Source of the DNA: a virus
Length of the DNA stretch: 64,000 nucleotides
IMG/VR virus record: IMGVR_UViG_3300045051_000081
Coordinates: 1-64,000 of that record
Reading direction: 5' to 3' (one strand)
Translations under genes and position numbers: made by a program
Shown here: in pieces, positions 1,530-55,307 of the stretch
Layout of the letters: every line of letters starts with the position of its first letter
How positions within the stretch are numbered: position 1 is the first letter of the stretch
Notes under the pieces: generated by a model
Seen by the model: the letters and a program-made list of their open reading frames with translations, nothing else
The model's database searches: none
What the model was told of the DNA's origin: nothing

Positions 1530-1720
1530 AGGGCAACCTCATTATCAAGGCATTCACGGTGCATTCGAGCTACGACAAAGACGCTGACTTCACCTACTGG
1601 ATTGTGCCGTTGCACGACTATGAGCCAGCCAATGGCGTGAAGTTCCAGATGCAGTTGTTTCACTCCAAGGAAGAAGCCGAGCGGTTCGCTGAACAGCATC
1701 GTGGAAAGAACAAGCAATGA
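1526..1720 (+). CDS. Unknown small early protein
   Basis: 64 aa, with the start overlapping the previous stop (ATGA). It has an N-terminal beta-rich part (LIIKAFTVHSSYD, FTYWIVPLHDY) and a charged helical tail ending in a basic segment. No family was recognised. The overlap on both sides indicates translational coupling in the early operon. Confidence 0.65.
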   Translation: MKGNLIIKAFTVHSSYDKDADFTYWIVPLHDYEPANGVKFQMQLFHSKEEAERFAEQHRGKNKQ

Positions 1721-2640
1721 CCCCCGAGGAGCAGAAGAAATACTGGCTGTGGTGGCAGCACAAGCTTGAGGGCAGGAACCCACCTGCGTCTGAGGGCACG
1801 CCCTATGCAGGCTTCTACCGTATGGTGCGGAAGGCCAGCTATGGTGGCACAAAGTTTGCGATACCGGTTGCCTATTGGCCCGGAGAGGATGGTGAGCTTC
1901 ACTGCCGTGAGGCCCATCGAGACGTGACCGGAGAACGTGGTCGCGACATCTGGATCAACGTCTGCAACAATCCGGTGCCCGAGGAATGGTACCGCGAGGT
2001 GGCGGAGGGCGACGAGCCCGAGTGGCGCGATGGCATGGCCACTGTGGCCCCCATGGGCGACAACCGTCCTCCTGACGAGACCGACTTCGACTATCTGACA
2101 GGCAAGATCAGCGACCTCGCTGCTGCTGCCAAGCTACGCCTTGAGGGCGAGCCTATCACTGAGCAGACCGAGGCTGATCTGATTAGCAATGTCGCTGACC
2201 AACTCAGCGAGTTCTGGAAGAAGGCCGACGAGGCGCGCAAGAAAGAACGTGCGCCATACGACGAGGCACTAAAGGAAATCCAGATCAAGTGGTCGCCGTT
2301 GTTACTGATGGCGGAAACCTACAAGAACTTGAAGTTCAAGCTCCTAACGCCGTGGCTCATCGCCCAGCAGAAGAAGGCAGAAGAGGAAGCCAAGGCGGCG
2401 GTGGCGGCGGGGGAACCAGTGCCTGACGCCCCCCGCCGTCCCCGTGCTGGCACACGCAGCCGTGCCATGAGCCTGAAGAGCTTCAAGTCTGCCGAGATCG
2501 TGGACTACGACCTGTGTCTTAACTTCTTCAAAGAGAACTCAGACGTGCGGGCAACTATACAGGATCTAGCGAACAAAGCCGTCAGAGCCGGTGTGACTGT
2601 GCCGGGTGCCAAGCTCATCGAGGAGCAAAGGACCGTGTGA
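1717..2640 (+). CDS. Unknown early protein with central coiled coil
   Basis: 307 aa. An N-terminal Trp/Tyr-rich part is followed by a typical alphaproteobacterial phage segment, MGDNRPPDETDFDYL (about residue 112 on). A long charged helix rich in Lys/Glu/Ala (about 120-230) and a short C-terminal globular part complete it. It overlaps its neighbours by 4 bases upstream and 1 base downstream (TGATG). Its position just upstream of the ERF gene suggests a role in DNA recombination or as a nuclease/recombinase accessory. No catalytic motif was seen. Confidence 0.75.
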   Translation: MTPEEQKKYWLWWQHKLEGRNPPASEGTPYAGFYRMVRKASYGGTKFAIPVAYWPGEDGELHCREAHRDVTGERGRDIWINVCNNPVPEEWYREVAEGDEPEWRDGMATVAPMGDNRPPDETDFDYLTGKISDLAAAAKLRLEGEPITEQTEADLISNVADQLSEFWKKADEARKKERAPYDEALKEIQIKWSPLLLMAETYKNLKFKLLTPWLIAQQKKAEEEAKAAVAAGEPVPDAPRRPRAGTRSRAMSLKSFKSAEIVDYDLCLNFFKENSDVRATIQDLANKAVRAGVTVPGAKLIEEQRTV

Positions 2641-2981
2641 TGGATGCTGAGAGAAAGCAAAAGCTGCTTGAGGCAATCGTCAAGCGCGAAGCAGAGCTAC
2701 ATGCCAATAAGCTCTCCAACGATCAGGTGTACTGGGATCTCGTGAACTTCACGCGCGATCACGTTGGACGAGCGTCACATGACGCGCTGCTCCGCTTCAA
2801 GTGGGCTGAGTACGGATACAGCGAGGGCTGTGCCGCAGTGTCTTTTGTGCTCTGCACGCTTCTAGCTGTGGTCAATCGCAACCTTCAGGTCACGCCGGAG
2901 CAGTTCGCTGAGATGGCGAAAGAGCGATTGATTGCCATCCGCGAGCAAGAAAAAGACGAGGATGAGGACGACGATGACTAA
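2640..2981 (+). CDS. Unknown acidic-tailed early protein
   Basis: 113 aa, with the ATG at 2640 sharing one base with the preceding TGA. The predicted helices are amphipathic. A moderately hydrophobic stretch (CAAVSFVLCTLLAVVNR, about residues 66-82) could be a buried helix. The protein ends in a run of Asp/Glu (DEDEDDDD). No family was recognised. It sits in the coupled early operon. Confidence 0.65.
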   Translation: MDAERKQKLLEAIVKREAELHANKLSNDQVYWDLVNFTRDHVGRASHDALLRFKWAEYGYSEGCAAVSFVLCTLLAVVNRNLQVTPEQFAEMAKERLIAIREQEKDEDEDDDD

Positions 2982-3117
2982 GACGATGACTGAGTTCCCA
3001 TGGGAATTTATGTACGGCTGGACTGTTGGCGTGGTGGGGTGTCTCATCGGAACTGTTTGGCATCATTACTCGAATCGACATAAACATCATCGCTCCCGGA
3101 GGACACACCATGAATGA
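2974..3117 (+). CDS. Tiny single-pass membrane protein
   Basis: A 47-aa frame starting inside the end of the previous gene. It begins MTKTMTEFPWEFMYGW and has one membrane span (GWTVGVVGCLIGTVW), then a His/Arg-rich cytoplasmic-type tail (RHKHHRSRRTHH). It overlaps the ERF start by 8 bases. Overlap at both ends and a sensible membrane topology support it. The function is unknown. Confidence 0.5.
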   Translation: MTKTMTEFPWEFMYGWTVGVVGCLIGTVWHHYSNRHKHHRSRRTHHE

Positions 3118-4351
3118 ACCCACATCTACGCCCCGGCGGCCCATTGTGCCGGGACCATCAGGGATAGCCGCGAAGGCCATCGCTGTACGTGAACAAGCTG
3201 CGCAGCAGAACGTGCGTCATAATCCTGATGGCAGTCAGCTTGTCAGAGCATCCTCTCCCATGGACTGGGAGCGTGAGCAGCAGGCCAAGCGCATGAGCCT
3301 GCCAACATATGAGGAGGCCAAGGATCGTGCCCGCTACGTGCAACCCGGTCCTGTCGGCAAGCTCGCCGCAGGCATTGCTGGCGTGATGTCCGAGGTCGGG
3401 ACCATCCAGAAGACCGGCTTCAACAAGTTCCATAACTATGCGTATGCCACACTCCAAGACTTGCTCTTCGCGGTCACTCCGCTGATGGGAAAGCATGGCG
3501 TGTGCGTGATCCAGAACGAGGTGGAGCGCACGCAGGTCGAGACCCGGATCATGGTGACCTATGAGTTCAGCATCTTCCATACGTCAGGAGAGGTATGGCC
3601 CGAGAAGCCCCGCTTCACCGGCATGTGCATTGGACGCAATTCCAAGGGAGACTACGACGACAAGGCAATCAACAAAGCGCACAGCGCCGCGAGGAAATAC
3701 TTCCTACTGAGCCTGTTTCAGGTGCCAAGCGGTGACTTCGATGACGCCGATGAAGGACCAGCCACCACTCGCCAGCAACCCAGCCAAACTGAGCGTGCCG
3801 ACCCGGTAAAGCAACCCAAATACGCCGAGCGTCCTCGCACCGTACCGGGACCAGCCAGTCCAACTAAGGAACCCGTAGTAGACGAGCGTCTACCTCACAA
3901 GATCGGCTTTGCTCCCGGTATGACTGCTGACATCTGGGCATCCACCTATGTCAGGGCCATCGGTATGGCCACCAGCCAGCAAGAGATCAGCGAGTGGGAC
4001 GGGCTTAACGACGCCACGCTGCAACGTCTCAGCGACAAGTACCCGGAGGTCTACGAGCAGGTAAAGGCGGTGGCAGACCAGCGCATGGAGCAGCTTGCGC
4101 CGCCTCTGGAGGCTGTCCCAAGCGGCATGCCAGACCCCAAGGAAGACCCCGGAGCCGCGCTGAACTGGATCGCTCAGGGATTGGTGGATTCCAAGACGCT
4201 GCAACAGGCAGAGAACTTCTGGAACAATGCCGTCGCACCGCGCGAGAAGGACTTCGACCCCGTGGACTGGGAGCTTCTACTGGAGGAGTTCAAGCGTAAC
4301 GAGATCAGGCTGAGCCCTGACGAACAGGAACCATCAGAAGCTGCCACATGA
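3110..4351 (+). CDS. erf: ERF-family single-strand DNA annealing protein
   Basis: 413 aa from the ATG at 3110, which has GGAGGA upstream; an in-frame ATG further 5' lacks a ribosome site. The ERF core spans about residues 80-205. It holds the typical FNKFHNYAYATLQDLL segment, the GVCVIQ strand, and the conserved GDYDDKAINKAHSAARKYFL motif that ends in LFQVPSGD. ERF proteins form rings that anneal complementary single strands in phage recombination. The C-terminal 200 residues are acidic and look like a separate helical domain (possible interaction with single-strand binding or nuclease partners, inferred). Together with RusA it forms a recombination pathway. Confidence 0.92.
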   Translation: MNEPTSTPRRPIVPGPSGIAAKAIAVREQAAQQNVRHNPDGSQLVRASSPMDWEREQQAKRMSLPTYEEAKDRARYVQPGPVGKLAAGIAGVMSEVGTIQKTGFNKFHNYAYATLQDLLFAVTPLMGKHGVCVIQNEVERTQVETRIMVTYEFSIFHTSGEVWPEKPRFTGMCIGRNSKGDYDDKAINKAHSAARKYFLLSLFQVPSGDFDDADEGPATTRQQPSQTERADPVKQPKYAERPRTVPGPASPTKEPVVDERLPHKIGFAPGMTADIWASTYVRAIGMATSQQEISEWDGLNDATLQRLSDKYPEVYEQVKAVADQRMEQLAPPLEAVPSGMPDPKEDPGAALNWIAQGLVDSKTLQQAENFWNNAVAPREKDFDPVDWELLLEEFKRNEIRLSPDEQEPSEAAT

Positions 4352-6864: not shown

Positions 6865-7373
6865 GGTGGCATTTTGAACAACTCATGCTCCGGGAACGCT
6901 TGCACTATTGGCATCTGCCATTCCACGCCATCCAACGGCAACCACTTCGGTAAGCCCTGCTTCTCTGGCTGTGGTGGCGTAGGTGTCGGTATCTGTTTTT
7001 GCAGTTCCTGTTCTCTTAACTCTCGCAACCGAAACGAACGGTCCCGTTCCTTGTCGAGAGCTTCCTGCATACGCTTGATTTCGTTGTTGTTGTAATTCAA
7101 CATCGTCTCGGTAATCTTCTGCATGTTATCCATCATGCCCTTGGTCACCTCGGCGCTGACGCAACCTCCTAGTATAATCTGTTGCTGTTGCTGCCACTCG
7201 ATGATCATCTTTGCCATCACGCTGCGCTGTTCGAGAGTCGCCGCACTGGAGTAATACAGCATGGCCGAGAGCGCGAACACGACAACCACCAACGCAAGCG
7301 AGAGTGGGTTCTCCCTCATTACCCCAAAGAAGGAGCGGGTAGTTTCACCGACTTCTTTGGAAACATCGATCAC
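6861..7373 (-). CDS. Membrane-anchored coiled-coil protein (spanin-like candidate)
   Basis: 170 aa. One membrane span (about residues 23-46; LSLALVVVVFALSAMLYYSS) is followed by a long Gln/Lys/Glu/Arg-rich coiled coil (about 55-125) and a Pro-rich C-terminus. This matches the layout of inner-membrane spanins (Rz) or an anchored lysis accessory: N-in anchor and periplasmic coiled coil. It overlaps the endolysin gene by 4 bases (ATGA), which supports a lysis role. No Rz1-type lipoprotein was recognised nearby, so a spanin assignment is inferred. Confidence 0.65.
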   Translation of the reverse strand: MIDVSKEVGETTRSFFGVMRENPLSLALVVVVFALSAMLYYSSAATLEQRSVMAKMIIEWQQQQQIILGGCVSAEVTKGMMDNMQKITETMLNYNNNEIKRMQEALDKERDRSFRLRELREQELQKQIPTPTPPQPEKQGLPKWLPLDGVEWQMPIVQAFPEHELFKMPP

Positions 7374-8935
7374 GCGATCTCCGGCTCATCCTCCGAGGTG
7401 CCTTCCACTAGCTCTTGTATCTTCTCCAGTAACTCATCCACCTCTGGTACGATCTCCGCCTCGTGACGCTTGATCGGTCCCCAATGATCCTTGAGAACAC
7501 GAAGCCCCACCGCTGTGCTCATCACCGCGAACGCGGGACAGTATTTCGCGAGCCACTGATAAGCCGCTCCGTCACCGGAACCGTAGACATTCAGGTTGTT
7601 TGCGGTGGGATAAATCCCCTCGCTGAAGATATCCAGAAACCCATTGGGATCTGCCCAGTACTCGTGGAATAGCTCCTCGATGTACGAGGACGAGTTGTGG
7701 AAGTTCCAGCTAGACTGGAACAGTCCCGCTTCACACGTATCACTTGACGTGTTGCTGGCCGACATGTCGCGGCCCTCGCAGTACTTGCCCGAGGATTCAC
7801 GCATCCCCAGACCTATCAGTAATACGAAGAGATGCCGGATACGCTCGCGCGAGGTGCCGTTGTTCATGTCTTCGTTATCGAACTGATCCGCGTACCACTC
7901 CATGGCGTCCTTATCTGGACTACCCAGTGGCTTAGCCATCGCCTGCGCAGACGCCTTGCCGGTCTGGAACATCTGCATGGCCACCGCGAAGCACATGGCC
8001 ATCCCGGAGATGTATCCGGGATAGGACGTGCCTCGGCCCTCCCACTCGTAGTCGTCCAAGCCAGATGCCACCACCAGCCTATCGATGTCCGACATCATCT
8101 CCACCGTGATGCCACTGTTGCCGTTGGCCATGCGCGTATCGAGAGCGTCCACCTCGGCCCATGTCATCGGGCCAACAACACCATCCGCGCCTAGCTCGCA
8201 CGCCGCTTGGAACGCACGTACCTGTGTATCCGTAATAGAACCAAAATCACCATCCGCCGGTATCCCCAGTGATCGCTGCAGCCGCGCCACAGCTTCCCCT
8301 TGATCACCCTTCTTAAGAGTAGGATGCGAATCAACGTCAGGCCCCGGCCCTTCCGGCGGGGGCTCTGTGACTGGAGGCCTGTCGGGTTGCTGGCCCGCCT
8401 GCTCGTCAGCGAGACCCTCGGCGATTGCCACGCAGATCTCGGAGAATCTGTCGTGATATATGTCCACATCTGCGTGCGAATTGACGAAGCATACCTCCAC
8501 TAGGACGGCTACTTCGTTGGTGTTGTTCAGGAAGGCGAAGTTCCCTGACTTGGGACCACGATTTTTCAGTCCAGAAGCGGTACATATTTTGTCCACCACC
8601 CTGTCAGCGACCTTCTGGCCCGCCGAAGAAGCATAGAACACTTCGCTACCCACCGGACCACTAGGCTGGGGGTCTGTACTATTGAAGTGGATGCTCACGT
8701 CTAGGTCGTGATTGCCCTGTGCATTGTGGTAGTCACAGATGCGATCAAGGTTCTCGTCCTGAGATTTGCTGACCGTATCCTCGTAGGTGACCACATCCAC
8801 GTCCATCGAGCGCAGCACTGCCGCTACCTCGTTGACGACCTTCACCGCTTCAGTGTGCTCGTGGATGCCCCAAGGGGATGGGCCTACAGCACCAGAGATA
8901 TACTTCCCGTGGCCTGAACTGATGACGATCTTCAT
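7370..8935 (-). CDS. Modular endolysin: N-acetylmuramoyl-L-alanine amidase plus peptidoglycan-binding domain
   Basis: 521 aa. Residues 1-175 are an Amidase_3 domain, a zinc enzyme cutting the bond between muramic acid and the stem peptide. The metal/catalytic residues are visible as H9 (SSGHG), E26 or E29, H83 (SIHFN) and E147 (LVEVCF). A Pro-rich linker (about 180-200) leads to a PG_binding_1 domain (about 204-265; KKGDQGEAVARLQRSLG, then DGVVGPMTW). The last 230 residues form a separate domain with GLGMRESSGKYCEGRD and AGLFQSSWNFHN. This is reminiscent of a lysozyme or transglycosylase-type fold with a Glu in M-R-E-S-S; a second muralytic activity is possible. It is coupled to the downstream membrane gene. 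No signal peptide is present, so release needs a holin. Confidence 0.9.
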   Translation of the reverse strand: MKIVISSGHGKYISGAVGPSPWGIHEHTEAVKVVNEVAAVLRSMDVDVVTYEDTVSKSQDENLDRICDYHNAQGNHDLDVSIHFNSTDPQPSGPVGSEVFYASSAGQKVADRVVDKICTASGLKNRGPKSGNFAFLNNTNEVAVLVEVCFVNSHADVDIYHDRFSEICVAIAEGLADEQAGQQPDRPPVTEPPPEGPGPDVDSHPTLKKGDQGEAVARLQRSLGIPADGDFGSITDTQVRAFQAACELGADGVVGPMTWAEVDALDTRMANGNSGITVEMMSDIDRLVVASGLDDYEWEGRGTSYPGYISGMAMCFAVAMQMFQTGKASAQAMAKPLGSPDKDAMEWYADQFDNEDMNNGTSRERIRHLFVLLIGLGMRESSGKYCEGRDMSASNTSSDTCEAGLFQSSWNFHNSSSYIEELFHEYWADPNGFLDIFSEGIYPTANNLNVYGSGDGAAYQWLAKYCPAFAVMSTAVGLRVLKDHWGPIKRHEAEIVPEVDELLEKIQELVEGTSEDEPEIA

Positions 8936-19565: not shown

Positions 19566-22500
19566 TTGCTCGGCCCCGGCAGTGTCTTCTGGAAGGCCTG
19601 CACCTGCTTACGAATAGCCTCAACGCTCTTGCATAGAATCTTGGACCCCGCATCGGAGTCGCCGCCGCCAATCGCTGCCACGATCTCGGGGTCTACAATC
19701 ATCTCCCCACCCGCCGTGACAATGGGCGTGGTGTCATCGTCCATGTCGTCTATCGGTGGGCCACCGTTGTGACCCATGAACCCGCCATCCTGATAGCCCT
19801 TCGGAACACTCGTCGGCAGGTTCTGATACGGCACCTTCTGCGGCGGCGCTATGATCGGCTTCGGTGCCGGAAGTTGACGCGAGCCGGGGCCTTTGACCCC
19901 ACCCATGCGTCCTATACCACCCTTCAACGCAGGCGCAGCACCTCGCCGCATGCCACCGGTCGCACCCCCGGTCACGCTATGCGTGAGCAGGTTGCCCCAC
20001 ATCTTGGCACCCGCCATCGTGTTCCCCTCACCCAATCCAGACACCACGTCAGCCGGGATCACAAAGCTGCCGGTGCGTGCCCGCATCGGGATGCGATCTG
20101 TGCGACCGGACACAGTAGAATTGATCAGGTGAGCCCCCGGCGCTCGCGCTGGCATATTGATGGCAGCCAGACCCGCACCCTTGGGCTGCGCCACGTTCCT
20201 CGCCCCGAAGTGGGACTGCTGCCCCATGGAGTTCATCGAGGAGGGGCTCATCACCGGCTTGGCAATCCCGCCTGCCGCCAGTCCCGGCACTAGACCACCA
20301 TGCTTGAAGCCGCCTCCACCAAATGCGCTCTGATCCTGTGGAGCCGCTCCCAGTCCAGCCGTAGGCGATGACATCACGTTGCTGACCATGGCATCCACAT
20401 TCAGAGGGCTCGACGGATTGCCGCCGCCGCTTCCCTTGCCACCACCAAGATCAGAGAAGCCGACCGAAGTCGCGCTTGACCCCGCCGTCTCCTCGATCCG
20501 CCTCTGCTCCTGACTTTGCATGCCCTGTAACACCATCATGGCCGCTGTCGGAATAGGAACCCGGAAGGCCTCCGCCGTCGCTGCCACAAGACCGGGAGCC
20601 GTCGCCGCCACCGAGGACGCTAGATCGGGATTGGCCTGCGCTGCCTGTGTCGCCGATATCACAGCCTGCGTGGCAGCGGGCGAGGCAGGATTAGGAACAC
20701 CGGGAGAGGGCGATTGGGTCGCTGGCGACGGAGAGGGCGTCTGTGTCTGTGGCGTCTGTGTTTGTGGCTGCGTCTGTGGCGTCTGCGTCTGCGGAGCAGG
20801 GGTCTGAGTCGTCCCTTTGATACCGGGCGCTGGACTGAGTGGCCCCTGAGTGAATGTCTGGTTTGTCTTATCCAGCGCAGTCGGGCTCGTTATACTGGTA
20901 TTAGCGGGAGCTATATTCCCCGGCTCAGCCAAGCCGGGAGCCTGCGGCCCGTAGTTTGGGCCGAAGTTAGTCGCCAACTGCGCAGCTTGCTGCTCCGCCT
21001 GTTGGTTCTGCGACACCATCGCATCCACGACATCCGCAATAGTCGCAGGCGACCGCCCCGCAATGTCAGCGGAAGGCTGCGCATTTGGATCAGCAGCAGG
21101 AGTCCCAGTGAAACCAGTAAAGCCTGAGGGATCCATTCCCTCGAACGCTTCCGTATTGGCGTGACCCTGAGCGGCAAGGCCGGGAGCGGGAGCAGCAGGG
21201 GCGGGAGCGGGCGCAGGAGCAGGGGCGGGATTGTAACTCTGCATCGCCTGATCAATACCTTTGGCGATCTCGCTTTGAACCATGCTGTAAGCAGGGACAC
21301 CAAGCACCGAATAGTTGGGGCCATAACCCAACTGAGCAGCAATCTGCGTGGCAATGCTTGTAAGCGCACTTCTGGCCGCAGCGGCTGGCACCCCCGCCTT
21401 TTCCATCGCTGACTTAGCCTGCGCCCCCCTCGCCATGCCTTCTTCCTTGGAGGTCACTGTCCCCCTCGTGGCATTCGTAACAATGCTCTGTACGGTCTGC
21501 GCTGTCGTTGGCGCAGGAGCAGGAGCAGGCTGATCCTGATCCGTCTGATCCATGCTCTCGTTGATGTCTTGATTGGCGTGCCCCACCTCTGCAGGATCAA
21601 GCCCAGCCTGAGCCGCCATCGTCGCTTGATTCGCGTGGCCCTGAGAGACAGCAGTCGAGGGGTCCATTCCCTCGTAAGCCCCCATGTTGGCGTGACCGGG
21701 AGCAACATCAGCAAGACCGGGAGTAGCCGCCATCGTTGCCGGATTGGCGTGACCTTGAGCGACAGCCGCAGCAGGCGCATCCATCCCTTCATATGCCGAC
21801 TGATTGGCATGGGCTCCGGTGGGATTGGTAAGACCGGGTGTTGGCGCTGCAGGAGCAGGCGCGAGAGCATCCAGCGTCTGCGCTTGAGTAGCGATAGCAG
21901 CCTGTGTCTGCGCTTGGTTTGTCGCTATCGTTTGATCGACGGTTGCAGCGATGTCCTGATTGGTCAGTCCCGGAGTGGGAGCAGCAGGAGCAACAGTAGG
22001 AGCAGCCGTTCGATCAGCAGGCGTCAGCGTGCCAAGTGTCTCTGCTATCGCTGCAGCTTTCGCATCCGCTATAGTTTGTGCAGCTTGTTGCGCTGCTTGC
22101 TGTGCCGCCTGAGTATCAAACGCCGCACCGGGAAGGGCATCATGTGCAGTAGACAGACTCTCCATGTCAGCCGGGGTTGCTGGGGCACCCTTACTTGCAG
22201 CAAAGTCCGCAGCGTGTGCAGCATCTATCGCTTGCTGCGCCGTTAAGCCGGGTGCAGCAACAGGAGCAACCTCCGCAGCCTTCTCCGCTGCAACCTCCGT
22301 TGGATTCTCAGCTTGAACAGCAGCAGCAATCTCTGCAGCAACCTCATTCGTGGGATCAGCCGAGGTCTGCGCGTCCTCCGTACCGGGTTGCCCCGTCTCC
22401 GCAGCAGGGGTAGCCCCAAGATCAGTCTGATTCATCGCCTGCGCTGCCGCCGTCAGCGCAGTAGCTAGAGCGGGATTGGATTGGGCCTGCGCTGCAGCAG

Positions 22501-48686: not shown

Positions 48687-50351
48687 TCAGCCAAGAGCCG
48701 GATAGAGCGCAACCGGTGCTCTCACGTACTTGTTCTCATCGATATGATCGAGTTCGTCTTCGTCTGGCATCTGCGCCAGACCGAGTAATCTTAGATGCGC
48801 CAGAGCCTGTGTCATGGCATCAGCGAGGTCGTCATGCTGGCCTTTCGGCAACTCGGCTAGCTCGGTGATCACCTTGTCGGCCCACTCCTTGAAGAGGTAG
48901 TCGCCGTTCCCGGTGCCCTCAGCAGGCGCGTATATCAGCCCGCATTCGAACAGGTTCTGCACCGCATAGGCTCTAGCCACCTTGTCACCCTCAGGATTCA
49001 CAAGCTGGACGCCGAAGTCCGAGCGATCCTGCGTTTTTGGGTTAAAGCTCAGCAAATCCGAGATATGGCGGGCTCTACGGCGCAATTCTTGGGCCACCGG
49101 GTGCCCTGACGCCTTGTCTTCGATCAAAACGCGGTTCACCTTGAATTTTCGGCAGGTTTCCTCGACTTTTTTGATCAAATCATAGAGTTCGAGGCGCTCA
49201 GCCCACGCCCACATGAGAATAAGCCGTCTATTCTCCCACTGATCGCGACAAACACCCAAAACCACCGCCGCCGAGGGGTCATTCTGCTTCTTTTCAGTCT
49301 GCGCAGTGTCCAGACTCAGTACCGTGTAGCTCATCACCGGCAATTTCGGCCACGGGACACCAAATCGCGGGCATTCCTCCGCTGTATAGGGCCGCCAGTG
49401 TTCCCGCTTGATGATTCCGCCGCCACGCGGGGCAGGCCTCTGCTGATACTGCCCCGCATACGCAAAGCTCCCCTTCTCCCTCTCGATATTCGCGACTGCT
49501 TCGGGTGAGAACCTCTCTGGCCACGCTAAATCTCCGTCCTCCGTTCGCGGATCGACCCACCCAATCGTGTTGAAGGGCTCGCGACCCGTCTCAAACTCCA
49601 TCGGCACCATCAAATGACAGTAGGGCCATCCTTGTTCCAAGATGAACCCGGAGATATCAAGCTGATGGACCCGCTGCATGATGATAATAATGGCACTATC
49701 GTCCAGATTATTGAGCCGGTCGGTGATCGTCTCGCGAAACCAGCGCACGGTATCTGTCCTAACGATGTCTGACTCGGACTTGTGGACATCGTGAGGGTCA
49801 TCGATAACGACGCGATCACCTCTTTCTCCAGTACCAATGCCCTTAACGGACGACGCGAACTTGGAGCCCGTCTTGTCGTTCGTGATTTTGATCTCGCCTT
49901 CCTTTTCGAGATTGAATTGGTCACCCCATAGCTCCCTGTACTTGTCGTGCATCACCAGTTTGCGAAATTTGGTGTTGTCACGCTCGGTCAGACCACTCGA
50001 ATACGAGAAACTCACGTAGCGCAGGTGCGCCATGCCCATCGGCCCCCACTCCCATGCGGGCCAAAAGACATTCACCATGAGGGATTTCATGGATCCGGGA
50101 GGGACATTGATGAGAAGTCTCGTGATTTTCCCTAAGGTGACCGCTTCTAGATGCTCACATATGGCGTAGAGCACCCAGCCTTCGACCAACTTGGTCTCGG
50201 GTTCGAGTATGTTCCAGAATCTGCGCACAAAGTCGATCAAACCGCCCGGTCTAGACTGCTTCTTGCGCTCCCTACGAAGCTCAAGCTCCTCCTGCATGGC
50301 CTTAAGCACATCAGGAGCAAGCTCGGGCGCGATATCGACTGCTTCAGTCAT
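48687..50351 (-). CDS. terL: Terminase large subunit
   Basis: 554 aa, the packaging motor ATPase-nuclease. The ATPase has a Walker A-like NVPPGSMKS (82-90) and Walker B VVIDDPHD (181-188). The C-terminal RNase H-like nuclease has LSLDTAQTE (D348), VLIEDKASG (E411, D412) and HDDLADAM (D507, D508, D511). Residues 35-60 form the typical start (FVRRFWNILEPETKLVEGW). GAGAG lies close to the ATG. The guide-like repeat array starts 45 bases upstream of its start, so terL may share a transcript with tas and the array. The small subunit appears to be encoded separately near 57.4 kb. Confidence 0.95.
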   Translation of the reverse strand: MTEAVDIAPELAPDVLKAMQEELELRRERKKQSRPGGLIDFVRRFWNILEPETKLVEGWVLYAICEHLEAVTLGKITRLLINVPPGSMKSLMVNVFWPAWEWGPMGMAHLRYVSFSYSSGLTERDNTKFRKLVMHDKYRELWGDQFNLEKEGEIKITNDKTGSKFASSVKGIGTGERGDRVVIDDPHDVHKSESDIVRTDTVRWFRETITDRLNNLDDSAIIIIMQRVHQLDISGFILEQGWPYCHLMVPMEFETGREPFNTIGWVDPRTEDGDLAWPERFSPEAVANIEREKGSFAYAGQYQQRPAPRGGGIIKREHWRPYTAEECPRFGVPWPKLPVMSYTVLSLDTAQTEKKQNDPSAAVVLGVCRDQWENRRLILMWAWAERLELYDLIKKVEETCRKFKVNRVLIEDKASGHPVAQELRRRARHISDLLSFNPKTQDRSDFGVQLVNPEGDKVARAYAVQNLFECGLIYAPAEGTGNGDYLFKEWADKVITELAELPKGQHDDLADAMTQALAHLRLLGLAQMPDEDELDHIDENKYVRAPVALYPALG

Positions 50352-50396
50352 CGTGTCTCTCTCGAATCACGAGGAGATTATGCGCTCTTGAAAGAT

Positions 50397-51956
50397 GGGT
50401 TGCTTACGGAAGGTGGCACGCTTACCGCGCCGGGGTTTCTAGGCTGTGATGGCACGCTAATGGCTGCTGGGTTGCTCTCATCTGATGGCGCACTAGAACA
50501 CGATGGTGTGCTTTCTAGAGATGGCACGCTAATGCTCTATGGGTAGCTTACCTGACAAGGCGCGCTGTTACGCTCTGGGTTGCTGAAGACGTTTGGCACG
50601 CTGCTGTCGCTTGGGTTGCTTCGTGCATGATGGCACGCTGGTGACGGTTGGATTACTTGAGATCGGTGGCACGCTTGGGCATCTCGGGTTGCTGGTGGAG
50701 GTTGGCACACTAATACTCAACGGATTTCTTAGTCGATTCGGCACGCTGTCGAGGGTTGGGTTGCTTGAGATTTGTGGCACGCTCTCGCTTGCTGGATTTC
50801 TAGTTCTTCTACGACACGCTTCCGGGTTTGGGTTGCTATGGGGCTTGGCACGCTTCGGCGTCTTGGGTTGCTATCTCCTCTTTGGCACGCTTACGCGCAT
50901 CGGTGTTCTGTCAGCGTGTGGCCCGCTTGTAGTGCGTGGGTTACTCGTGCGGAACGGCTCGCTTTTTGACCTTGGGTTACTGGCCTTAACTGGCACGCTG
51001 TCCATGTCTGGGTTACTAAACGACATGTGGCACGCTTTTACCCTCCGGGTTGCTATTTTGAAGTGGCGCGCTCGCCGCATCAGGGTTGCTAGGTGCCGTA
51101 GGCGCGCTAGAAGGTGCGGGGTTACTTGACGACGATGGCACGCTGGTTTGAGGTGGGCTGCTCCTCTAGCTTGGCACGCTGGCCGAATGCGGGTTTCTCG
51201 AAGCCGTAGGCACGCTCTACAGTTCCGGTTTTCTCAGTTTACATGGCACGCTGGGACCACTTGGGTTTCTCTATGACCAATGGCACGCTAGGTAGCGCAG
51301 GGTTGCTTGTTTTTGGTAGCACGTTTATGGGTGTCGGATTTCCGGCTCTTAATGGCACGCTGCTTCAACGCGGTTTACTCCAGCCAAACGGCACGCTGAC
51401 ATTGCAAGGGTTGCTCCGAGATGGTGGCGCGCTATTGGTGCTTGGGTTACTAAGCTTAAGTGGCACGCTCGTCGCATTTGGGTTGCTACTGTACAAAGGC
51501 ACGCTCCTTGCGCTTGGGTTACTGAGATAGAATGGCGCGCTCTATTGGCATGGTTTTCTAGTCAGAACTGGCACGCTTTTGCGCAACGGGTTGCTGGTGT
51601 GGGACGGCACGCTACATTCAACTGGGTTACTTGACGAGCTTGGCACGCTGTGGGTTTTTGGATTACTCATCGCAACTGGCACGCTTGTGGTCTACGGATT
51701 GCTCTTGTCGTAGGGCACGCTTCACGTCGTCGGGTTTTTCGTCTTATGCGGCACGCTCGTCGGGATTGGGTTACTGGTGAAAGTCGGCGCGCTGCTCGAT
51801 CTTGGGTTGCTCTAAGCCTACTGACGCGCTTGCGGTGAACGGATTGCTTATCAGCCGTGGCACGCTCGTTCCAGTTGGGTTGCTCGCACTCTGAAGCACG
51901 CTTAACGTCTGTGGGTTGCTCAGCTAGAGTGGCACGCTTGCCGTTCATGGGTTGCT
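50397..51956 (-). repeat. TIGR-type tandem interspaced guide RNA array (43 A-cores, 44 B-cores)
   Basis: There are 87 consecutive 8-bp cores. On the plus strand they alternate strictly between core B (GGGTTGCT) and core A (GGCACGCT), with start-to-start distance 18 bp. Only eight steps deviate, by one base. The 10-bp stretches between cores all look different. The full period is therefore 36 bp, with two spacers and two distinct repeats, as in TIGR arrays that give 36-nt guide RNAs with two spacers. A is exact in 29 of 43 and B in 18 of 44; B varies mainly at positions 3 and 6 (GG[GAT]TT[GAT]CT). The base before a core is often T. On the tas strand the cores read AGCGTGCC and AGCAACCC. The array fills the whole gap between tas and terL; strand assignment is inferred from tas. 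No continuous reading frame survives. Confidence 0.92.
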
Positions 51957-51961
51957 TACCA

Positions 51962-53038
51962 CTACGCGGCATGTGGCGGCTGACCCATCTTGGCCACCCG
52001 ATAGGGCGCAGTGACACTTAGCCCTTCTTGCTCGCGCCACTTCACCCAGAGATCCGTGAGGAATTGCTTCACCATCACACGGGTGGCATCAGTGTGTATT
52101 CTTCCGGGGGTCCAGTGACGCCGTAGATCTTCTTCGGTCCCCACTCCCGCCTTGAGTTGCTTGTGGAGCTTCTTCCACACCGCAACCGTGACCTTGACCC
52201 GCGTAGGATCCGTGGTGACGCGGTGTTTGCGGTCATCGTAGACCTTGCGCCGGATAGGGCATTTGGAGCGTAAGAATCCGGGGCCGAGAACGCCCATGAG
52301 CTTGGTCTTCAGGAACGGGTTATACGTGACACCCATGCGGGTTTTCATCTCACCGTTTTTCGCACGGTAAGTACGCTCTACGAGGTGCTCTTCCCGGCGT
52401 GAGCGTCCCGAGCCTTTGTCCACGTCCAAGCCTGCGTACTTGTGAAAGCTGGAAGCGTGTCGCGCTTTGCGCGGGTCCAAGTAGGAAATAAGCACGCCGC
52501 CCATGGCGGGGCCGACACCGACCACGTCTTTGAGGTAGTTCCGGTAGATCGGGATCTCCATGAGAGTGCCTTCAAGGTCGCGGAACTGCTTGGCCTCCTG
52601 CTTTTCGAGGGCGAGATAGCTCTCCACCAGCGCCAGTTCAGCAGCGGTACTGATAATCGGCGAGCCGGTCAGGTCCAGCTTCTTCATGAGAACTCTTCCT
52701 TTCTTGGAAGTGATCCCATCCGTGAGGCGCTTGTATTCCGCCTTGATGATCTTGATCACCTTCTTCTTGCGTTTCTCTTCTTTCTTGCGCTCGGCTGCAG
52801 CGGCTTCGTCCTCTTCACTCACTTCCTCGACCACATCTTCCACCGCATCTGGATCGATGTCCACGCGAGGATCATCAGGCTTGTCGAGGTCCACGGCTTT
52901 AAGTCTTGCGCGGAAATTCGCACAGAGGCGTAAACCTGATTGCATGCGTAGTTGCTGGAGATCGTAGGCCCCGCGCACCATGGCGCGGAGCGTGTTGAGA
53001 ATATCGGATTCAAAGACCGTGATTGTAGGCGCACCCAT
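51962..53038 (-). CDS. Tas-like protein (IS110/Nop-related domain, no visible nuclease domain)
   Basis: 358 aa from the ATG at 53038, preceded by AAGGAGTCTGACG; an upstream in-frame start lacks this site. Residues 1-55 are helical. Residues 62-110 are a highly charged linker/coiled coil (EEVSEEDEAAAAERKKEEKR), and 110-165 more helices. From about 163 the sequence matches the Transposase_20 (IS110 C-terminal) pattern: LKDVVGVGPAMGGVLISYL (169-187), FHKYAGLDVDKGSG (198-211), YNPFLKTKLMGVLG (239-252) and HTDATRVMVKQFL (315-327). TIGR-associated (Tas) proteins carry such a Nop/IS110-related RNA-binding domain. No RuvC-like DEDD or HNH motif is seen, so it would be a nuclease-less type. No terminal inverted repeats suggest an IS element. 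Its 3' end touches the guide-like array. Confidence 0.85.
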   Translation of the reverse strand: MGAPTITVFESDILNTLRAMVRGAYDLQQLRMQSGLRLCANFRARLKAVDLDKPDDPRVDIDPDAVEDVVEEVSEEDEAAAAERKKEEKRKKKVIKIIKAEYKRLTDGITSKKGRVLMKKLDLTGSPIISTAAELALVESYLALEKQEAKQFRDLEGTLMEIPIYRNYLKDVVGVGPAMGGVLISYLDPRKARHASSFHKYAGLDVDKGSGRSRREEHLVERTYRAKNGEMKTRMGVTYNPFLKTKLMGVLGPGFLRSKCPIRRKVYDDRKHRVTTDPTRVKVTVAVWKKLHKQLKAGVGTEEDLRRHWTPGRIHTDATRVMVKQFLTDLWVKWREQEGLSVTAPYRVAKMGQPPHAA

Positions 53039-53040
53039 CG

Positions 53041-53217
53041 TCAGACTCCTTCTTTGTGTTTGAGCTTCTCCAATAAGAGCATCCTTGCCCACGAGGAAAG
53101 CTGGAGCCCTTTCCTGTCGGCATCGGATTCAAATCTCACCCGCTCGTCCTCGGTCAGACGCACCACCATGATGGACGTGCGCAGCGACGGCTTTGCTTTT
53201 CGCGGTTTTTTGCTCAT
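53041..53217 (-). CDS. Small ribbon-helix-helix-like DNA-binding protein upstream of tas
   Basis: 58 aa from MSKKPRKAKPSLRTSIMVVR. A basic N-terminal tail is followed by a short strand (RTSIMVVRLTEDE) and two helices (ERVRFESDADRKGLQLSSWA, RMLLLEKLK). This is the layout of MobC/Arc-type ribbon-helix-helix repressors. It ends two bases before the tas start and is certainly in the same transcript. It probably autoregulates the operon through the inverted repeat at 53228-53248 (inference). Confidence 0.72.
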   Translation of the reverse strand: MSKKPRKAKPSLRTSIMVVRLTEDERVRFESDADRKGLQLSSWARMLLLEKLKHKEGV

Positions 53218-53285
53218 AGCGTCCCTCTCGGCTAGACAAGCTAACCGAATTGTATTACGAAAGTCAACACATCGGACAGCGCGCC
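53218..53285. promoter_or_regulatory. Divergent promoter region with an operator-like inverted repeat
   Basis: Between the RHH-tas transcript and the plus-strand operon lies TCGGCTAG (53228-53235), a 5-base gap, and CTAACCGA (53241-53248), an imperfect palindrome matching 7 of 8 positions. The flanking AT-rich stretch (AATTGTATTACGAAAG) may hold promoter elements. It is a good candidate site for the RHH protein. Confidence 0.5.
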
Positions 53286-53525
53286 ATGACATATGAGATC
53301 CAGCACATAGCCCGGATCAGGGAACTGGAAGCCGAGCTAGCCAAGGTACGCGAGGGGGCCGCGCTCATCGTGCATGCCCTGAACTGCGCAATCCAACTGA
53401 CAGAGGCTCTTATCACGTATATGCCGGATCAGAGCCCGTTGCATCCTAGTGTGGGTGCCTGCAAAGGCGCGCTGGACAACGCAATGCGAGCGATCAACGT
53501 GACGTTAAGGAACCCAGTCCCATGA
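53286..53525 (+). CDS. Unknown small helical protein
   Basis: 79 aa starting MTYEIQHIARIRELEAELAK; the frame also has an earlier in-frame ATG at 53250. It is mainly helical with a leucine-heptad start, then a hydrophobic helix (ALIVHALNCAIQLTEALITY). It is divergently transcribed from the RHH-tas transcript and coupled by ATGA to the next gene. No family was recognised. Confidence 0.65.
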   Translation: MTYEIQHIARIRELEAELAKVREGAALIVHALNCAIQLTEALITYMPDQSPLHPSVGACKGALDNAMRAINVTLRNPVP

Positions 53526-54775: not shown

Positions 54776-55273
54776 ATGTCGATCATGTCGGAATACGCTG
54801 ACTTTCTGTACGACGCGCTCCCGTGCCGTACCTACGAAGATATCTTGGTGGAGATGAAGAAGACCTTCCCCGCCTTCACCCTGACGATGGTGAATAATAC
54901 TATACACTGGATCCGCGCGCACCAAGACGAGAACGATCCCGACTATCCCGGCTTCAACATCGCGTACATCAAGGTCGGAATGCCGGGATGGGACGAAGGG
55001 TTACGCATCTTCGCCATCAACAAGAACGACCCCTCATTCAAGTTCGATGACGACCAGAGAGACCACTTCGACAATGGCCTTCTGATGACGGCGCTAAGCG
55101 TGGACACCCGCATCCGGTTCCAGATCGAGATGCTGGAGGCTGGGCAAATCCACGAGGTCAGGCGGGTCTACCGCGAGGCCTACGAGGACTACGCCTATGC
55201 CCTGCAAGGAATGATCCGGGCCATCAAGCGGGCACAGCGGATCATCAAGGAGAAACAGAACGGAACAACCTGA
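54776..55273 (+). CDS. Unknown protein before the operon terminator
   Basis: 165 aa; a weak ribosome site (AAGGATGGGA) precedes the ATG. Helix-rich start (EYADFLYDALPCRTYEDILV), a mid beta part (FNIAYIKVGMPGWDEGLRIF) and C-terminal helices (REAYEDYAYALQGMIRAIKR). No known domain. It is the last gene of the plus-strand block and is followed by short repeats and a strong terminator. Confidence 0.65.
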   Translation: MSIMSEYADFLYDALPCRTYEDILVEMKKTFPAFTLTMVNNTIHWIRAHQDENDPDYPGFNIAYIKVGMPGWDEGLRIFAINKNDPSFKFDDDQRDHFDNGLLMTALSVDTRIRFQIEMLEAGQIHEVRRVYREAYEDYAYALQGMIRAIKRAQRIIKEKQNGTT

Positions 55274-55307
55274 CACTTCCCGGCACTTTCTGACACTTCC
55301 CGACACT
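55271..55307. repeat. Short direct repeats after the operon
   Basis: TGACACTTCCCG occurs twice (starts near 55271 and 55291), with related GGCACTTTC and CGACACT halves. They form four phased CACT-containing segments just before the terminator. They might bind a regulator or be a relic. Confidence 0.5.

Follow-up and report, generated by a model that had tools for sequence, protein, structure and literature searches.

TIGR-Tas systems, which were discovered only recently, target DNA with the help of guide RNAs. Their arrays are built from two alternating repeats of 8-12 nt and spacers of ~9 nt, arranged in a 36-nt unit, and the origin of the spacers and the expansion of the arrays have been named as enigmas (Faure 2025, PMC12045711). 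The present analysis concerns such a locus in a bacterial virus, located in a 64-kb window (positions 1 to 64,000 of the 71,071-bp IMG/VR virus record IMGVR_UViG_3300045051_000081), in which an array of two alternating repeats adjoins tas, a gene encoding a 358-aa Nop-domain protein. The locus is a genuine and unusually large TIGR-TasA, a kind of system that is already known; the geometry of its guides, their coding register and the turnover of the array in whole units go beyond the 2025 description and are the more novel part. We consider it highly probable that the virus carries a TIGR-Tas system of TasA type, which lacks a nuclease, with the guide geometry and mechanism set out below.

Previously described TIGR-TasA systems, such as FpTasA, likewise have a Nop-domain-only effector, truncated edge repeats and a 36-nt period, and are phage-borne (Faure 2025, PMC12045711). 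They typically contain 5-15 units, compared with 44 in the window and, unlike them, the window array is fused to the tas stop codon and runs towards the gene for the terminase large subunit (terL). In addition, the last bases of the two spacers of a unit (A and B) covary in the window family, whereas no obvious covariation was described in that study. SpTIGR-TasH from Salicola phage CGphi29 (HQ634153) has an edge repeat (AGCGAGCC) and a loop repeat (AGACAACC) that are close to those of the window (AGCGTGCC and AGCAACCC), and its C-terminal half is homologous to the window Tas, but it has an N-terminal HNH nuclease, unlike the window protein, and 8-nt spacers with an invariant A in place of the variable, covarying base 10 of the window. 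TaTasR (PDB 9mty) shares the Nop domain and the two-spacer guide, but differs from the window system in its N-terminal RuvC nuclease, its UG...CCA repeats and its contiguous 18-bp site in assays. The bridge-RNA recombinases of the IS110 family, such as IS621, are related in their RNA-binding domain (the fold match is weak, E 3e-2) but, unlike the window system, use one bridge RNA together with a DEDD recombinase and have no array.

The order on the minus strand is a small ribbon-helix-helix-like gene, tas, the array and terL, with the following features in window coordinates.

51962..53038, minus strand: tas, TasA-type Nop-domain protein of 358 aa (ATG at 53038, stop codon at 51964-51962; identified by NF052498, PDB and Foldseek)
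50379..51975, minus strand: TIGR dual-repeat array of 44 units with a 36-bp period (chain score 776; no chain in 20 shuffles of the same stretch)
51968..51975, minus strand: 5' truncated edge repeat CACATGCC, within the final tas codons
50379..50386, minus strand: 3' truncated edge repeat AGCG|CATA, 28 bp ahead of the terL start codon; the array of the related locus L002 terminates in the same truncated edge
53041..53292, minus strand: small ribbon-helix-helix-like protein, immediately 5' of tas (inner ATG at 53217)
48687..50351, minus strand: terL, the downstream neighbour of the array (phrog_38, E 2.6e-79; Terminase_6C)

The true strand of the array is the minus strand, co-directional with tas and terL, and each unit consists of the edge repeat, spacer A, the loop repeat and spacer B with a half-period of 18 bp. 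The array walk yielded 87 complete alternating cores (50397-51956 in plus-strand coordinates) and a truncated edge at each end, giving 44 units. Steps from core to core are 18 bp, apart from a few of 19 bp and two of 17 bp, and the spacers that follow the 8-nt cores are 10 nt long in 80 of 88 cases. An earlier note on this DNA, made by a model from the letters alone, had described 87 alternating cores at 18-bp spacing, which the walk and the shuffle control bear out, with about 86 spacers of 10 bp and about 43 guides; the alternation and the spacer length hold, and the counts become 88 and 44. Its account of the surroundings, in which the array abuts the 358-aa protein, a ribbon-helix-helix gene precedes that protein and terL follows directly, agrees with the open reading frames (ORFs) and with the 28-bp gap to terL on the same strand, and the array in fact begins inside the 3' end of tas. 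Since the first truncated edge lies within the last tas codons, the stop codon of tas falls in spacer A of unit 1. The edge and loop repeats share flanking motifs with box D/box C-like ends, both having the form AG...CC followed mostly by A in the window and in two related loci (L002 and L003). Because spacers make up more than half of the array, Tandem Repeats Finder does not detect it. An Rfam search gave no credible match. There was no convincing rho-independent terminator at the array end or between the array and terL, the few matches in the region being below the number expected by chance; such a terminator after a TIGR array is typical but not universal (Faure 2025, PMC12045711).

The product of tas passes the curated NCBIfam model NF052498 (TIGR_Tas_endo) with an E value of 2.9e-30 and 105.9 bits against a cut-off of 100. 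The model is named for an endonuclease, yet the window protein shows no nuclease, and neither an HNH nor a RuvC domain was detected at its N terminus with Pfam and NCBIfam. Helices are predicted at residues 8-47 and 78-106 (coiled coil), followed by a Nop/Transposase_20-type region, and the lack of a detectable HNH or RuvC domain together with these N-terminal helices makes the protein TasA-type in the nomenclature of Faure. Its best solved relatives by sequence are TasR (PDB 9mty, 4e-8) and TasH (PDB 21kl, 7.7e-5). When an AlphaFold model built from 14 relatives (pLDDT 78.9) was searched with Foldseek, the top 11 PDB chains were all TasH or TasR, and IS621 and Nop5 followed with weaker matches. 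The Nop/IS110 relationship proposed earlier is supported by the structural and sequence matches, with TasH and TasR best and IS110-type recombinases next, and the TIGR-Tas identity stands on the family model, the fold and the recurrence of the array. Between the window and L002, 105 of the 121 nucleotide differences in tas fall at third codon positions and there are 4 amino acid changes; judged by this pattern, tas is under strong purifying selection. Annotated phages contained no match to the window Tas.

A profile scan of IMG/VR found 176 Tas relatives, of which the best 80 were kept. Among 84,980 prokaryote species 11 contigs had Tas relatives, nearly all of them from metagenome-assembled genomes, and no relative was found on plasmids; the clade is therefore virus-borne. 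A dual-repeat array was present in 57 of the 64 related Tas loci examined, and a scan of both strands of the fetched loci found arrays on the tas strand only. The repeats vary by sub-family (AGCGTGCC/AGCAACCC, AGCGAGCC/AGAAACCC, AACGAGTC/AGACAACC and others) and agree in kind with the published Salicola phage repeats. Among 61 relatives of terL, tas was seen ahead of terL only in a subclade with terL at least 95% identical, and dozens of relatives at 73-86% identity have no tas before terL, hence the system is an accessory insertion. Two other terL relatives carry a distant Tas homologue at a different genome position and on the opposite strand, close to array-like chains (L197 3998-4810 and L198 1882-2697); these are perhaps independent acquisitions.

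The window locus and its relatives provide more than 1,000 guides, which makes site geometry, coding nature and the unit of turnover measurable. The statistics were obtained from 1,025-1,125 distinct units with 10-nt spacers from the window and related viruses. Spacers A and B end in mutually complementary bases in 37.1% of 1,125 units versus 24.3% in within-array shuffles (Z 12.4), and this persists after near-duplicates are removed (36.8% versus 24.7%, Z 11.6) and is present in all six repeat families with enough units, while none of the other spacer position pairs (100 in all) rises above Z 2.5. If spacer A is joined to the reverse complement of spacer B so that the two overlap by a single base pair, the implied site is 19 bp long. 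In these sites, each strand has just one register that is short of stop codons (169 versus 221, z -4.5, and 201 versus 243, z -3.4), with counts in the other four registers within 1 standard deviation. Both depleted registers place codon wobble at site positions 1, 4, 7, 10, 13, 16, and 19, and a codon-usage model agrees with this register. A joint two-spacer coding likelihood, for which array ORFs were excluded from training of the codon-usage model, beats within-array shuffled pairings only for opposite strands with a gap of -1 mod 3 (z 3.4, 0/1,000). The preferred register alone keeps spacer bases 5-6, counted from the base after CC, off the wobble positions, and these are the bases to which the seed was mapped for TasR (Faure 2025, PMC12045711; mapping onto array spacers by the present analysis). 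Taken statistically and across the family, these data suggest that the two spacers of a unit are directed at opposite strands of a single site, a relation that the earlier note had anticipated and that is seen both in the last-base complementarity and in the reading frames. From the overlap covariation and the coding register, the guides therefore appear to address protein-coding DNA.

In a TIGR-TasA, the complementary last bases might instead form an RNA-RNA pair with each other in the middle of the folded guide, rather than report a shared target base pair, as both bases directly precede a repeat and are close to the pseudo-two-fold axis in the published complex. We regard this as unlikely, though worth serious attention, because the reading-frame relation, when calculated without those bases, independently gives a gap of -1 mod 3, which such a pair does not predict.

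The arrays of the window and of L002, whose terL genes are 87% identical, show how the units are replaced. There are 11 of 44 units in common with no more than two differences in 16 sites, compared with 0.4 for shuffled pairing, and 6 of these are identical, the remaining units of the arrays appearing unrelated. With 29% of third codon positions differing between the two tas genes, ~4-5 differences would be expected in shared units under neutral drift, and the retained units are far more conserved than the third codon positions of tas. No spacer kept with a new partner was found in four array pairs. Since shared units are nearly unchanged and spacers are not re-partnered, units are kept or replaced whole, as A/B pairs. 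The kept units are roughly in order but locally shuffled, and near-identical neighbouring units in other arrays (L143 units 8/9, L150 23/24 and L130 22/24) suggest local duplication.

By analogy with the published homologues, the array would be co-transcribed with tas, probably continuing towards terL, and the transcript would be cut within the edge repeats to give guides of ~36 nt with two short spacers each, every guide being bound by a Tas dimer. Spacers A and B would pair with opposite strands of a single short DNA site, and their 3' ends would come together at a base pair common to both. Such sites would largely be protein-coding DNA of other replicons (competing phages, other mobile elements or the host) rather than of this phage. 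As Tas lacks a nuclease, it most likely acts by binding and bending, and so blocking, DNA, or by recruiting another factor. More broadly, and as a tentative proposal that we rate as possible rather than probable, TIGR-TasA arrays may be large heritable guide libraries against the coding DNA of others, with 17-19-bp sites covered on opposite strands, a shared central base pair, a TasR-type seed (array-spacer bases 5-6) held at codon positions 1 and 2, where synonymous mutation could hardly bring escape, and gain, loss and shuffling of whole units alongside conservation of those retained. They would thus be like an adaptive memory, but one for which no adaptation genes are known.

Several results weigh against this proposed mechanism. 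The excess of paired spacer matches that the earlier note had proposed as a test did not appear, as there was none over shuffled pairs in the phage itself (the 64-kb window and the remaining 7 kb), in 1.25 Mb of fetched loci or in 0.53 Mb around terL of close relatives. Exact scans of IMG/VR with four guides (3, 0, 0, and 2 matches, the last two apparently chance) gave no target. The size of the stop depletion suggests that only ~40% of guides are in the preferred coding register, and the idea that diverged homologous guides differ mainly at one codon phase did not hold up, as the test was not significant once the variable first base had been excluded. In addition, no promoter or terminator could be named for the array, and the published arrays, as stated above, were reported to be without obvious covariation. 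A Walker-motif bias was also considered, and it did not exceed shuffles. The guide of L002 unit 5 has an exact 19-bp match at L071 10867-10885 (minus strand) within a gene for a GpA-type terminase, where it lies in the predicted frame (KLVTFN), and two other matches (L072/L073) where the frame is not gene-like; as about one chance match is expected, the L071 match is unproven as a target.

A TIGR-TasA might also regulate the phage's own genes or those of its host rather than act against competitors. The lack of a nuclease and the position of the array directly before terL with no clear terminator fit such a role, for which we see a small probability, because no paired matches above shuffles occur in the 64-kb window or the remaining 7 kb, a search that covered the phage genome. 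It is very improbable that the array encodes a protein (SVPxxxSNPxxx, or GTLxxxGLLxxx on the other strand) and that its open frames account for the scarcity of stop codons. The period is divisible by 3 and both depleted registers are the repeat read-through frames, but such a gene would have A and B coding on the same strand, whereas their strand preference is anticorrelated (z -3.2) and the joint likelihood is z -2.3 compared with 3.4 for opposite strands; depletion is also about equal on both strands, and the last-base complementarity is left unexplained. Long frames do cross the array at 50593-51129 (plus strand, GTLxxxGLLxxx) and 50568-50780 (minus strand, SVPxxxSNPxxx), and such frames, which gene callers would annotate as repetitive proteins, are most likely spurious. 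An IS110-type transposon or its remnant beside an unrelated repeat array, to which a sub-threshold Transposase_20 match (E 0.0065), a PHROG labelled transposase and the appearance of IS621 and ISCro4 in the fold search might point, is counted as refuted, with next to no probability left to it, since a coiled coil rather than a DEDD domain precedes the Nop part, far better scores are obtained with Tas structures and the TIGR-Tas model, and the pairing of array and protein recurs in 57/64 loci. A CRISPR-Cas system was rejected on its two alternating 8-nt repeats, in place of a single one of 25-36 nt, and the lack of a cas match among the flanking proteins searched.

The results narrow the search for natural targets to coding DNA, supply a design rule of a 1-bp overlap for TasA, and point to phage pairs and a cultured Microcystis phage as places to look for targets. 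The latter, Mvi-JY20, has an unannotated TIGR array (TGCGAGCC / CGAAACCC) at L223 3986-4330 (PP438412.1 ~22092-22436), which sits after a tas-like ORF and just ahead of a gene annotated as terL, and as an isolate of known host it is useful for a target search.

The ribbon-helix-helix-like protein has NikA-like/DUF6290 matches (E 3-5e-5, below cut-off), and its gene is kept upstream of tas in the nearest relatives only (L002, L003, and L076). Elsewhere in the window, a short tandem repeat with a 10/20-bp unit (GACACTTCCC) lies at 55270-55307 at the end of a small ORF, no tRNA genes were found, and genes for an Erf-like annealing protein, an exonuclease, and an endolysin are located at 1717-4351 and 7370-8935. 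TerL and the portal protein are nearest to those of an uncultured Manatee Spring phage, with Roseobacter, Paracoccus, and Rhizobium phages among the next matches.
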